Source: Gammaproteobacteria bacterium | GTDB lineage: Bacteria > Pseudomonadota > Gammaproteobacteria > Chromatiales > Chromatiaceae | DNA length: 10,584 bases | Assembly (NCBI GenBank): GCA_030594925.1 | Contig: JAUVEG010000024.1 | Location: 1-10,584 of the forward strand | Reading direction: 5' to 3' | Shown: positions 4,595 through 10,252 of the stretch, one piece after another | Position numbering within the stretch: position 1 is the first letter of the stretch | How the letters are laid out: every line of letters starts with the position of its first letter | Notes under the pieces: model-generated | The model's input: only the letters and a program-made list of their open reading frames with translations | Database searches by the model: none | What the model was told of the DNA's origin: nothing | Position numbers and translations under genes: made by a program

Positions 4595-4759
4595 TCATCT
4601 TTTACCACGAAAAGCACGAAAAAAGGGCATCCTTGATTTTTCGGTTTGCAGTCTGTCATCTCGACGCAGGAGAGATCCTGGAGCTCTATACTTCAGGATT
4701 CCTCGTCGTTCGCCTACACGGATGCAGGTGAAGGGCGTGACTTTCGTGGTTCATCTTTT
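4595..4759. mobile_element. MITE-like element with 9-bp inverted repeats and 9-bp target duplication
   Basis: A 147-bp non-coding core (4604-4750) starts with ACCACGAAA (4604-4612) and ends with its exact complement TTTCGTGGT (4742-4750). It is flanked on both sides by TCATCTTTT (4595-4603 and 4751-4759), a perfect 9-bp direct repeat typical of a target-site duplication. The right copy contains the tmcA stop codon (TGA on the minus strand, 4751-4753), so the insertion left the protein unchanged. The inner part contains a dispersed 31-base repeat (4649-4679) and a core (4709-4740) shared with the 212-bp elements. No coding capacity or transposase is present. Confidence 0.8.
4649..4679 (+). repeat. 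31-base dispersed repeat, copy 1 (CATCTCGACG type)
   Basis: This stretch, centred on GTCATCTCGACGCAGGAGAG, matches the reverse complement of 6875-6905 at 28 of 31 bases. Here it sits inside the MITE-like element after tmcA. The next bases (ATCCTG 4675-4680, CAGGAT 4695-4700) can form a small hairpin. Confidence 0.65.
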
Positions 4760-6838
4760 TTCAGTAGTTCCTGCAACCATCAATTTTTGAACAGCATCCT
4801 GCAGAGAGCGCTGCACCTCGCGCTTTCCGGCCAGCTGCAACCTTGTGGCAAGACTCTGGATTGATTCTCTCTGTAAAACCCTGCTGAAAAAGAGATCCTG
4901 CTGCTGATCGCTAACTCTTTCTGCATCGCCGCTGCGGGCGGCCCACATTGCCAGCTCCACGAGTTCCGGGAATATGGCGTCGAACGGGAGTTGCGCTGCA
5001 GCAAATCGCTTCAGCAGTTCTCTGCTGCCTGGTGATAAATCACGGTTGTGCATGGCGTCCTGAAGCAGCGGCAGGAAGATCCTGCTCTCCAGTTGATTGA
5101 GATTGTCGGTGAGTAGCAGTGGAAGTTGTTTGAAAAAACGCTCTTGTGCCTGCTTCAACAGCTGCCTGCCATTCTCAGTAACAGGCTTGAGCATTAGCAG
5201 CGAGTGGCAGCCGCTGGATGCCTCTCTTGTCAATCCGAGGCGCACCGGCAGGAAACCATTTTTTCGCCACAAAGCGATCAAGTCACTGCTGGCGCCAAAA
5301 CTGGTGCAGATCGTATCGATGCCTTCTGCTGTGGAAGCGAGCGCATTTAAAAGCGCAGTGGCAACGCCTTTTCTGCGGATTGCCGGATGCACGGCAATAC
5401 GCATGATGCGTAAAAAATTGTGCTGCAGCGCCTGCGGCTGGGCACAGTGCAGCGACAGTGTCTGGGGTGCAAGATGTCCTCGCGGACGCCTCTCCCCTGA
5501 AAGGATGTGTGACATCATGGCATCATCGAATCCCCCTTCGCGAACCGCAACTGCAACAGCGGCAATCTCTCCCCGGTAACGCCCCAGCAGGATCTCGACA
5601 TTGGCGCCATCGAGCAGATAACGCAGATCGAACGGGCGGGTGCGGTAGTGCGCCAGTACCAGCAAGCCAAATAACTGCCGCAATGTTTGCTCATCCTGAA
5701 GCAGTGCATCCCGGGTGATGCGGCTGATTTCAAGTTGATCCGGCGTGAAATTTGCAAAAGCATCTTCATCAGCCGGCTCTGCATTCATTAGAAGCGCATC
5801 AAAAGTGAGTTGTTCAAGCGGGTCGTTAGGATCCCAGCGTATCGGGGTGGAGAGTTGCATCTCCCGCCACTGCGGAGTGATACGATCGAGGGTGCTGCGA
5901 AAGCGGATGGCAAAACCTCTACCGGTGCCTTCGTAACCATGCACCGTGGTGGAGAAGACAATACGTTTGTAGCGCCGCAGCAGGGTTTCAAGCAGTGGGG
6001 CAGGAATGGCGGCGGCTTCATCAACAAGTAGAATATCGGCGCTGTTGTGCTCCTTCAATAGCTGATCCGGGGCTACGAAGCTGAGAGATCGATCCTGTGT
6101 AAATAGTCTCCCTTTACGGGAGCTGAAGCCGGGAAGTTGTGCGCCCGCATGTCGAAACAGGGTTTCAACAGCATTCATTGCCGGAGCTGTGACTACAATA
6201 TGGTATTTGTCATGTTCGTGTTTGTTCAGCAGTATGGCGGCAGCCAGGCCCAGCGCGGCGCTTTTCCCCCGCCCCCTGTCTGCTGTGATGACCAGCGGAC
6301 GGCAGCGATGACCGCTGGCGACGTGCACAATGGCGTCGATTGCCTGTTGTTGATCATCAGTGGATGTTGTTATGCAGGTGACGGGGGAGGGGAGCGGCAC
6401 GCTTTCATGCGCCTCTCCCTGTGAGATGATTTGAACATCAGGAGTGTGCAGAAACATGCTGCTGAGACGTTGCAAAAAGCGGCCGTTGATCTTGTCTGCC
6501 GTTACCGGCCATACGCAGATGCGTTGATAGTCGGGGTCTTCAAAATCGGGCCATTGATGTAGTGGCGGAGTGAGCAACAGCAGATAGCCGTGATTATTGA
6601 TGGTGCCACTGACAGCGGCAAAAGCATCCGCATCAAAGCCGCAATGGGCATCAAAGAGAATGCTGTGAAACTCCTCTCCCAGCAGCTGCTTTGCCCGGAT
6701 TGCTGGAATCACCTGCTTGAGTTGCTGCTGCTCTGCGATGTCGCCGACCCACACAACTCCCGGGCGGTTCGTCAGCAGCTGTGCGGCCCTTTCTCTACAC
6801 CATGCGGCGCTACCGGCAACAATCAGAAAATGACGCAT
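4751..6838 (-). CDS. tmcA: tRNA(Met) cytidine acetyltransferase TmcA
   Basis: A 695-residue cytosolic enzyme that makes N4-acetylcytidine at the wobble position (C34) of elongator tRNA-Met, using acetyl-CoA and ATP or GTP hydrolysis. Domain order fits the family: an N-terminal domain (about 1-140); an RNA-helicase-like ATPase with Walker A DRGRGKSA (187-194), Walker B DEAAAIP (273-279) and STTVHGYEGTGRGF (296-309); a GNAT acetyltransferase with the acetyl-CoA loop RIAVHPAIRRKGVATALL (480-497); and a C-terminal tRNA-binding tail. Length is close to the E. coli protein (about 670). The start is ATG at 6838; a possible AGAGG lies rather far upstream. It follows galU on the same strand after 112 bp, so co-transcription is possible. 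The stop codon lies in the target duplication of a MITE-like element. Confidence 0.95.
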   Translation of the reverse strand: MRHFLIVAGSAAWCRERAAQLLTNRPGVVWVGDIAEQQQLKQVIPAIRAKQLLGEEFHSILFDAHCGFDADAFAAVSGTINNHGYLLLLTPPLHQWPDFEDPDYQRICVWPVTADKINGRFLQRLSSMFLHTPDVQIISQGEAHESVPLPSPVTCITTSTDDQQQAIDAIVHVASGHRCRPLVITADRGRGKSAALGLAAAILLNKHEHDKYHIVVTAPAMNAVETLFRHAGAQLPGFSSRKGRLFTQDRSLSFVAPDQLLKEHNSADILLVDEAAAIPAPLLETLLRRYKRIVFSTTVHGYEGTGRGFAIRFRSTLDRITPQWREMQLSTPIRWDPNDPLEQLTFDALLMNAEPADEDAFANFTPDQLEISRITRDALLQDEQTLRQLFGLLVLAHYRTRPFDLRYLLDGANVEILLGRYRGEIAAVAVAVREGGFDDAMMSHILSGERRPRGHLAPQTLSLHCAQPQALQHNFLRIMRIAVHPAIRRKGVATALLNALASTAEGIDTICTSFGASSDLIALWRKNGFLPVRLGLTREASSGCHSLLMLKPVTENGRQLLKQAQERFFKQLPLLLTDNLNQLESRIFLPLLQDAMHNRDLSPGSRELLKRFAAAQLPFDAIFPELVELAMWAARSGDAERVSDQQQDLFFSRVLQRESIQSLATRLQLAGKREVQRSLQDAVQKLMVAGTTEKR

Positions 6839-7800: not shown

Positions 7801-8286
7801 TCAACGCAGCTTCCATGTGGGGCTGCTTAAACGATCAATGATACCAGCCTTTAGCAGCCACTGTCTCGCATCTTCAGCATCTTCTTCAAACCATGCACGC
7901 GCGGAACCAAGCCGGAAGGTGTAGCCCCAGCGGTCCATATCCTGCATCATCTGAGCAGCACTGTAACCGGACAGTTCATCTGAGAGGATGATCTGCAGAT
8001 AACAGACGCCATTCTCTTCATCATAGTCACCGCCGGCATCCGTATGCAGTTGTGTGCGTCGCTCACTCTGCATGCAGATATAGTGGCAGGCCTCATGAAA
8101 GGCGGAGTGAAGTGGTGTGTCATCACGGATATAGAGGTGGTTTTTGATCAATCCGGCCTCACTCTCCCCCCAGTAGGAACCGGGTATAGGCGTGTCATCA
8201 CTGACCGGATTGATGGCCATTGCGTATCTAAGAAAGAGTTTTTCGATTTCTGGAACTCTTTCCCTGCAGAGAGTAACATCAGGCAT
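7801..8286 (-). CDS. Conserved-looking small protein with an HEXXH motif
   Basis: A 161-residue predicted soluble protein that I cannot assign to a named family. HEACH at residues 64-68 fits the zinc-metallopeptidase signature HEXXH and lies in a plausible helix (PLHSAFHEACHYICM). Possible third ligands follow in the acidic stretch (D87, E90, E91) or in SDELSG (102-107). The C-terminal third is rich in Trp and acidic residues (AWFEEDAEDARQWLLKAGII). There is no signal peptide or transmembrane segment, so activity, if any, would be cytosolic. The ATG at 8284-8286 has only a weak ribosome binding site. It lies immediately upstream of galU in the same direction and is divergent from the acyltransferase. 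Protease activity is inference from the motif. Confidence 0.8.
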   Translation of the reverse strand: MPDVTLCRERVPEIEKLFLRYAMAINPVSDDTPIPGSYWGESEAGLIKNHLYIRDDTPLHSAFHEACHYICMQSERRTQLHTDAGGDYDEENGVCYLQIILSDELSGYSAAQMMQDMDRWGYTFRLGSARAWFEEDAEDARQWLLKAGIIDRLSSPTWKLR

Positions 8287-9271: not shown

Positions 9272-9310
9272 CTGAATTCATGGTCATCTTGAGTAGTGGA
9301 GGAGAATCCG

Positions 9311-10252
9311 ATGTCTGCAGAATTTCCAATCATCGCATTAACCGGTTCGTCGGGGGCAGGCAGTTCGACGATCACCAGGGCTTTTGAGCATATCTTCTGG
9401 CGTGACAGGGTCAAGGCCGCCTATATTCAGGGGAGTGGTTTTCATCGCTACAATCGTAAGGAGATGGGACAGAAAGTCAGCAAGGCCTGTACTGAGGATC
9501 GTGTTCTCAGCCATTATGGTCCCGAAGGGAATTGTCTCGACAAGCTGGAAACGCTCTTTTTTCAGTACTCTGCAGTCGGTTCAGGACAGCGGCGTTACTA
9601 TCTTCACACAACTGAACAAGCAGTAAAGTGGGGGCAGGGTGTTGGGACTCTCACTCCCTGGGAAAAGATCGAGGGTAAAACCGACCTGCTGCTCTACCGC
9701 GGCCTGCATGGCGCCGCAATTGACGGAGATATCGATATCTCACAATATCCGGATCTGCTGATTGGCATTGTGCCGATCGTCAATCTGGAGTGGATCCGGA
9801 AGATTGGCCGCGATACGAAGTTGCGCGGCTACTCCGTGGACGATGTCAGGCACTCCATTCAGTGCCGCATGCACGACTATGTGCACCATATCACTCCGCA
9901 GTTTTCCCGCACGCATATTAACTTTCAGATGGTCTCTACGGTCGATACTTCAGATCCATTCGCTGAAGATAACATCATGCCGACTGAAGATGAGAGTTTT
10001 ATTGTGATCAGTTTTCAGCGCGGGATGCGGCCGGATTTTATCGAGCTGTTGAGCCTGCTGCCGAATTCATTCATGTCACGGAGAGACACGCTGGTGGTCC
10101 CGGGCAGCGCACTGCTGCATGCGATAGAGATTATCCTGATGCCACTGGTGCATGATCTGGTGGTGAAAGGCAGGGAGTTGCGCGAGGTCAGGAAACTGCC
10201 GAAAAAGCGCAAAGCAGGACTGCATGGCGTTCTCGGTCAGTCAGACGGGTAA
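9311..10252 (+). CDS. prk: Phosphoribulokinase-family protein lacking two catalytic acids
   Basis: A 313-residue member of the type I (bacterial) phosphoribulokinase family, which normally phosphorylates ribulose-5-phosphate to ribulose-1,5-bisphosphate for the Calvin cycle. The fold is well kept: P-loop GSSGAGSS (12-19), GFHRYNRKEM (43-52), IVPIVNLEWIRKIGRD (153-168), ITPQFSRTHINFQ (194-206), VDTSDPF (211-217) and FMSRRDTLVVPG (254-265). Two acids considered essential in characterised relatives are replaced: the Asp of the usual EGD-S/A-FHR motif is S42 (codon AGT, 9434-9436; the local sequence is QGSGFHR), and the Glu of FYEGLHG is R130 (codon CGC, 9698-9700). The frame is intact, so this is not an obvious pseudogene. 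GGAGGAG (9298-9304) fixes the ATG at 9311 over an in-frame GTG at 9296. The C-terminal tail is slightly longer than usual and basic. Confidence 0.9.
   Translation: MSAEFPIIALTGSSGAGSSTITRAFEHIFWRDRVKAAYIQGSGFHRYNRKEMGQKVSKACTEDRVLSHYGPEGNCLDKLETLFFQYSAVGSGQRRYYLHTTEQAVKWGQGVGTLTPWEKIEGKTDLLLYRGLHGAAIDGDIDISQYPDLLIGIVPIVNLEWIRKIGRDTKLRGYSVDDVRHSIQCRMHDYVHHITPQFSRTHINFQMVSTVDTSDPFAEDNIMPTEDESFIVISFQRGMRPDFIELLSLLPNSFMSRRDTLVVPGSALLHAIEIILMPLVHDLVVKGRELREVRKLPKKRKAGLHGVLGQSDG

Follow-up and report, generated by a model that had tools for sequence, protein, structure and literature searches.

The window, by which we mean the whole stretch of 10,584 nucleotides that was analysed, carries on its plus strand at 9311..10252 a gene for a phosphoribulokinase (PRK) paralogue of 313 amino acids plus a stop codon (P0001). 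GGAGGAG at 9298..9304 on the same strand is likely its ribosome-binding site, with the ATG 6 nucleotides downstream. The protein belongs to the Pfam PRK family (E 4.9e-51) and is aligned by phmmer over residues 1-284 to the type I PRK of Rhodobacter sphaeroides (1a7j; E 2.5e-76), confirming the intact 313-codon PRK-homologue frame claimed in the preliminary description. With 386.9 bits it also clears the 362-bit cut-off of the NCBIfam equivalog for phosphoribulokinase. A lipid A acyltransferase-like gene (PF03279; 8353..9216, plus strand) is the upstream neighbour and is given here as context only. On the minus strand, 4751-6838 encodes a TmcA/NAT10-type RNA cytidine acetyltransferase-like protein of 695 amino acids, and 7801-8286 a protein of 161 amino acids that has no match in Pfam or NCBIfam and in which, by eye, a HEACH motif of the HExxH type is seen, as in zinc metallopeptidases. 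A promoter scan gave four promoter-like sites against 1.4 expected, the sole plus-strand one lying downstream of the gene, and a terminator scan found none.

We compared the neighbourhood of the paralogue in 14 stretches (L004 and L114 being one contig, and L007 and L117 one locus) and found no conserved neighbour tying it to Calvin-cycle genes. The neighbours vary by lineage: lipid A acyltransferase and polyphosphate kinase 2 (PPK2) in the window's genus, an RpoH sigma factor and a heavy-metal ATPase in the Solemya symbiont, and acyltransferase and SGNH genes in Thiothrix. The lipid A acyltransferase-like gene adjoins the paralogue in the five genomes of the window's genus that were compared and was not found in the other-genus stretches compared; a homologue of the 7801-8286 protein likewise lies nearby in those five same-genus genomes. 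In sister genomes the PPK2 gene is convergent and downstream (L114:63-950, L115:1168-2055), beyond the point at which the window ends.

The P-loop of the window protein (residues 12-20, GSSGAGSST; 9344..9370, plus strand) fits the pattern GxxGxGx[ST] and has the Walker serine, with Thr18 replaced by Ser. Ser42 (codon AGT, 9434..9436, plus strand) replaces the catalytic Asp42, and Arg130 (codon CGC, 9698..9700, plus strand) replaces the presumed metal ligand Glu131, as is evident from the sequence and its alignment to 1a7j; from here on, R. sphaeroides numbering is used. These are the two replacements originally claimed for this protein, and they stand: the phmmer alignment is gap-free at both motifs (QGSGFHR against EGDAFHR, and LLYRGLHG against LFYEGLHG), ruling out a shifted alignment as their cause, and Ser and Arg fall exactly on Asp and Glu, with E. 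coli PrkB reading EGDSFHR and FYEGLHG. We take the catalytic-base aspartate of the plant and algal enzymes to correspond to Asp42, and mutation of either Asp42 or Glu131 cripples R. sphaeroides PRK. The other residue roles used below, including that of the sugar-phosphate cradle, are presumed from work on the same enzyme. One source, in the sections available to us and with plant and algal numbering, gives an Asp as the base in PRK catalysis (PMC9978339). Residues 287-313, GRELREVRKLPKKRKAGLHGVLGQSDG, form a C-terminal extension (10169..10249, plus strand) that alignment and motif counts mark as typical of the clade described next.

When homologues were sought with the window protein and again with P0116, a deep-branching member of the clade, each query gave at least 120 matches, and the two together at least 144 distinct proteins besides the window's own. 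Among the matches listed, 144 homologues picked from the database by similarity alone all have Arg or Lys at position 131, and Asp42 is absent from 141 of them; the three that bear it (P0026, P0046 and P0109) have Arg at 131. Sequencing error is thus ruled out as the source of the replacements, like ones being present in isolates of other genera and in four more genomes from the window's genus. The clade makes up one side of a branch with SH-aLRT support of 100 in a tree of 138 rows, which included 68 of the 158 canonical rows (a chosen set plus 45 random ones) and 27 database proteins, and the branch has support of 100/100 in a more careful tree of 65 rows; both PrkB and R. sphaeroides PRK lie on the canonical side of the 100/100 branch. 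A contig-level profile scan with at least 80 loci listed places among the carriers Thiothrix caldifontis, T. lacustris, Thiothrix sp. UBA5583 and Thiolinea disciformis, and further Cocleimonas, the Solemya velum gill symbiont and a Chromatiales metagenome genome. Named isolates and genomes of one to four contigs are represented, and the open frame is full-length in every carrier locus read.

For a census of residues we used 176 clade rows, in which some genes are doubled as locus and database protein (as they also are in the set of 152 rows used for the tail). Locus rows below 300 bits or with more than 60 gaps were excluded, leaving 200, namely 31 from the clade, 8 of the g3 type discussed below, 158 canonical and 3 other; the canonical class is defined by Asp42 and Glu131, so that its 158/158 at both positions is no result. 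Position 42 in the clade is Ser in 99 rows, Asn in 71, Asp in 3, Gly in 2 and Ala in 1, and position 131 is Arg in 152 and Lys in 24. The P-loop pattern is intact in 111 rows, gapped in 4 and broken in 61 (61 of 172 ungapped), GAMESGSV being one broken form, seen in 19 rows; in the canonical loci Gly12, Gly15, Gly17 and Ser/Thr19 are present in 158 of 158. One Thiothrix branch of genus g240 (L008, L036 and L186-L196) has lost the pattern to GAMESGSV, GAMESGSI or GALESGSV, and there FHR has become FRR, a change that accompanies a swap at Arg168. No Lys is among the residues listed for clade rows at position 22, and no Arg is left at 208. Arg186 (kept in 48/176), Arg221 (18/176) and Arg234 (30/176), which we take to be effector or lid residues, are mostly lost.

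The residues presumed to bind the sugar phosphate have fared differently, being retained in the window protein and in most clade rows. Arg49 is present in all 176, Tyr98 in 175, Arg187 in 174, His100 in 173, Arg173 in 165, Arg168 in 152 and Lys165 in 151, with Arg in the other 25; Asp169 is kept in 154 rows (otherwise Glu) and His45 in 150. A nine-residue cradle set, picked by the presumed roles of the residues, has a mean entropy of 0.29 bits, against 1.19 for the P-loop set and 1.18 for all sites. Arg45 occurs with His168 in 23 rows and with Glu169 in 22, and this coupled swap at 45, 168 and 169 suggests that the cradle may still be in use, although it is perhaps a single event, since the loci read come from closely related carriers. 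A second Arg stands at 164 in 148 of 176 clade rows. Lys78 and Arg200 show little or no variation in the clade but vary in canonical PRKs, and position 140 is Asp in 94% and Glu in 3% of the clade, compared with 29% and 23% in canonical PRKs.

Another feature of the clade is a tail of about 20 residues, which in the window protein is basic and whose core resembles SRxIR...PKxRxxGLLG. The motif in its strict form is found in 115 of 152 clade rows and none of 158 canonical rows, and a looser core, [SG]Rx[ILV][RK], in 148 of 152 and 1 of 158, respectively; of the 37 clade rows missed by the strict motif, the 25 that were inspected have variant tails. Newly conserved features next to chemistry that has gone are to be expected of a recruited pseudoenzyme.

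Selection on the gene was gauged from dN/dS by the Nei-Gojobori method, with pairs dropped where dS was saturated or undefined (6 of 45 in Thiothrix and 12 of 28 for the g3 type). In the window's genus the median for the paralogue is 0.083 (10 pairs), compared with 0.046 (10 pairs) for its canonical counterparts in those genomes, and in Thiothrix it is 0.064 for the paralogues (39 usable of 45 pairs) and 0.063 for five canonical genes (10 pairs). The paralogue is under purifying selection, somewhat weaker than that on its partner in the window's genus. The proposals that selection maintains the gene and that Ser42 and Arg130 mark a clade under purifying selection are borne out by the single branch at 100/100 and by the low dN/dS (about 0.08 in the window's genus).

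The draft genome from which the window comes (1.78 Mb, 72% complete) has a second PRK homologue on another contig (C90:3146-4015), which is 52% identical to the window protein and retains both EGDSFHR and FYEGLHG; the window gene is therefore a paralogue beside a normal PRK, and the coexistence with a true PRK that had been predicted is indeed found. A canonical gene beside those for RuBisCO was also among the checks proposed: the canonical PRK gene is present, and a RuBisCO large-subunit gene is on a separate contig (C117), where it runs past the contig edge. Next to that RuBisCO gene is an opposite-strand frame that, by eye, resembles a LysR-type regulator.

To follow the paralogue across genomes we used a profile (A1) built from 66 clade proteins, which separates the clade by score; the clade range is 449 bits and above, the top canonical score is 448, and more diverged members could escape. 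In a sample of 276 genomes of the class, 176 have a PRK match, and scores in the clade range are confined to the window's genome and G088. Within family f67, to which G088 belongs, 24 of 63 genomes carry the clade gene, including 16 of 16 in g240. Among 210 genomes of the window's family it is present in five of six from the window's genus, the sole non-carrier being a genome 56% complete, and in two of two from genus g6. Every carrier (31 of 31) has two PRK matches, and in the 30 whose second copy was read (all but G378) that copy is canonical, with EGDS and YEGLHG.

The association with RuBisCO is looser. A RuBisCO match is present in 22 of the 24 f67 carriers, with none found in G350 (96% complete) or G351 (81%), and also in carriers G000 (the window's genome), G003 and G010; it was not found in carriers G001 (83% complete), G002 (93%) and G004 (79%). 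All five genomes without a match are drafts. Among the f67 genomes with PRK matches only below the clade range, 19 of 26 have RuBisCO (one of the 19 below the family cut-off), as do 5 of the 13 without a PRK match. A strict tie of the clade gene to RuBisCO thus failed, at 22 of 24 carriers against 19 of 26 and 5 of 13.

Altered PRK paralogues of other types also stand beside canonical copies, as read in part of the g3 and g273 genomes and in a Sulfuricella metagenome-assembled genome. In genus g3, eight of nine genomes (L091, L209, L210, L212, L213, L217, L218 and L220) have a gene with Ser or Gly at 42, Gln at 131 and the Walker Ser changed to Asn, Trp or Ala, and each of the eight has three or four PRK matches. 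The split joining the window clade and the g3 type has support of 98/90, and the g3 type may be the sister of the window clade. All 15 genomes of genus g273 (L266-L280) have DGN[ASG]FRR (Asn42), YDGMHG or YDGLHG (Asp131), an intact P-loop and Lys for Arg173; in L266, moreover, GMHG is followed by an insert of some 30 residues that is strongly basic, and L235 (G006), with its own motifs KGNAFRR and YEGMHG, groups with this type. The Sulfuricella gene (L025 / L156 / L245) has Glu at 42, keeps Glu131 and has the P-loop GASGAGTEP, with the canonical copy L158 in the same genome. When the window clade and the g3, g273/G006 and Sulfuricella types were constrained together, p-AU was 0.274, and a single origin of all the altered paralogues is not rejected.

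The carriers in Thiothrix bring the clade into contact with published work. In the portions of the genome papers that we could draw on, two phylogenetically different prk copies are reported in all members of Thiothrix (PMC9455678), two copies are called typical for the genus (PMC7767063), and two are given for 'Ca. Thiothrix putei' and thirteen earlier members, with prk1 and prk2 in a table (PMC10532065). The prk2 of these papers is most probably the gene of the window clade, because 16 of 16 g240 genomes carry the clade gene and a second copy and because loci of T. caldifontis and T. lacustris fall in the clade. Those portions count prk2 as phosphoribulokinase and are silent on any loss of catalytic residues (PMC9455678, PMC10532065, PMC7767063). 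As far as the excerpts of the open-licence literature that we searched extend, we found no description of the catalytic-residue loss in the window clade, and prk terms were found in neither PMC8570282 nor PMC9319827.

Our reading is that the window protein may be a type I PRK that has lost catalysis and is maintained because it regulates the Calvin cycle through sugar-phosphate binding; on the sequence data we give this about an even chance of being right. The missing base, the positive charge at the presumed metal-ligand position, the drifting nucleotide loop, the conserved cradle, the new tail and the second PRK in each carrier found suit this role better than any other. The preliminary description had left the choice among a pseudoenzyme, a regulator and a kinase for another substrate, a range that our results support; within it, we prefer a pseudoenzyme or regulator to the kinase, since about a third of clade rows have a broken P-loop. 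The P-loop of the window protein itself, intact but for Thr18, speaks against a dead enzyme, as nucleotide binding is possible there. Further points against our reading are the neighbourhoods lacking a Calvin-cycle link, the carriers in which RuBisCO was not found, the three homologues with Asp42, the rows in which His45 of the cradle is replaced, the loss of Arg186, Arg221 and Arg234 from most rows, and the variant tails. The chemistry would have been lost through the change of the base to Ser or Asn and of the YEGLHG Glu to Arg or Lys, with the nucleotide loop drifting; most of the cradle (Arg49, Arg96, Tyr98, His100, Lys165, Arg168, Arg173 and Arg187) is retained and the tail has been added. 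Inactivity, ligand and partner are what we infer: the ligand would be ribulose-5-phosphate or ribulose-1,5-bisphosphate (RuBP), and the protein might act as a non-catalytic subunit inside the octamer of the canonical PRK or might relay sugar-phosphate level to another partner through its tail.

In the part of one study accessible to us, RuBP activates the regulator CbbR (PMC4806589), and a sensor of RuBP or ribulose-5-phosphate would therefore sit at a known control point. Tentatively, and with distinctly less confidence, we would extend the regulator reading to a family of sensors in which Arg131 (Arg130 in the window protein), mostly together with Arg164, replaces the metal at the site of phosphoryl transfer, the pocket reads RuBP or ribulose-5-phosphate, and the signal is passed on through mixed octamers or through the tail.

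The protein could instead be a dead paralogue working outside the Calvin cycle, as a scaffold or bound through its tail to some other partner, with no sugar-phosphate ligand at all. The conserved new tail, the lack of a Calvin-cycle link in the neighbourhoods compared and the carriers without detected RuBisCO would all suit such a role, which we nevertheless think unlikely, given that the sugar-phosphate residues are more conserved than the average site and that a second PRK match accompanies the gene in all 31 carriers. A kinase or phosphotransferase acting on another substrate, or an active site rearranged around another acid as base, is improbable. Some so-called pseudoenzymes are active through migrated residues, according to the sections of PMC10211241 at hand, the window protein keeps most of its P-loop and Asp169 (Asp168 in its own numbering), and Asp140 is enriched in the clade; however, Arg or Lys at 131 in every one of 176 rows, the absence of Asp42 from 173 of them and the broken P-loops are losses that working ATP-dependent kinases should not tolerate.

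More doubtful again, and in our view quite improbable, is an active PRK isozyme that tolerates the substitutions and serves the cell as a second enzyme in different conditions. The portions of the Thiothrix papers cited above do count both copies as phosphoribulokinase (PMC9455678, PMC10532065, PMC7767063), and the window protein passes the NCBIfam cut-off, but an Asp, which we equate with the one replaced at 42, is described as the catalytic base in the sections of PMC9978339 already mentioned, and even the three homologues bearing Asp42 have Arg at 131. A decaying relic or an assembly artefact is hardly credible, for despite the weaker constraint relative to canonical PRK in the window's genus (0.083 against 0.046) the gene has full-length open frames in many genomes, dN/dS near 0.08, deep divergence, clade-specific conserved positions and a tail, and its presence in named isolates, and in assemblies made up of one to four contigs, helps to rule out error of assembly.

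Set beside known systems, the proposed regulator shares with the octameric R. sphaeroides enzyme (1a7j) its family, its cradle and, in the window protein, the lid residues Lys165, Arg168 and Arg173, and the clade differs from it in having Ser or Asn for Asp42, Arg or Lys for Glu131, a drifting P-loop and the extra C-terminal tail. E. coli PrkB matches the same NCBIfam model as the window protein, but unlike the window clade it keeps EGDSFHR and FYEGLHG and sits on the canonical side of the tree; of seven proteins scanned, PrkB is the one that NF011997/PRK15453 scores highest, and its function, too, is to our knowledge unsettled. RuBisCO-like proteins (form IV RuBisCO) are members of a Calvin-cycle enzyme family that lack catalytic residues; some of them are enzymes of other pathways, and the window clade would be their kinase counterpart should the sensor reading be true. 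The trypanosomatid prozyme and a dead paralogue of deoxyhypusine synthase, as presented in those parts of the reports that we consulted, likewise pair a dead copy with an active enzyme (PMC5201418, PMC3663545). They offer a model for activation within a hetero-oligomer, in families unrelated to PRK.

Automated annotation labels many proteins of the clade as phosphoribulokinase. Scores above the NCBIfam cut-off of 362 are reached by the window protein, by P0116 and by P0057 of the Solemya symbiont, and P0141 of Thiothrix caldifontis (359.4) and the Thiolinea disciformis protein (345) fall below it; P0141 has a broken P-loop pattern and is still named phosphoribulokinase in public records. PRK serves as a marker gene for the Calvin cycle, and the enzyme inventories of Thiothrix, the Solemya symbionts and their relatives would need correction. 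If the protein is a regulator, it would give chemosynthetic bacteria a point of control over carbon fixation that can be put to the test and, were the sensor reading to prove true, would add a further level of control to the Calvin cycle of sulphur oxidisers and animal symbionts.
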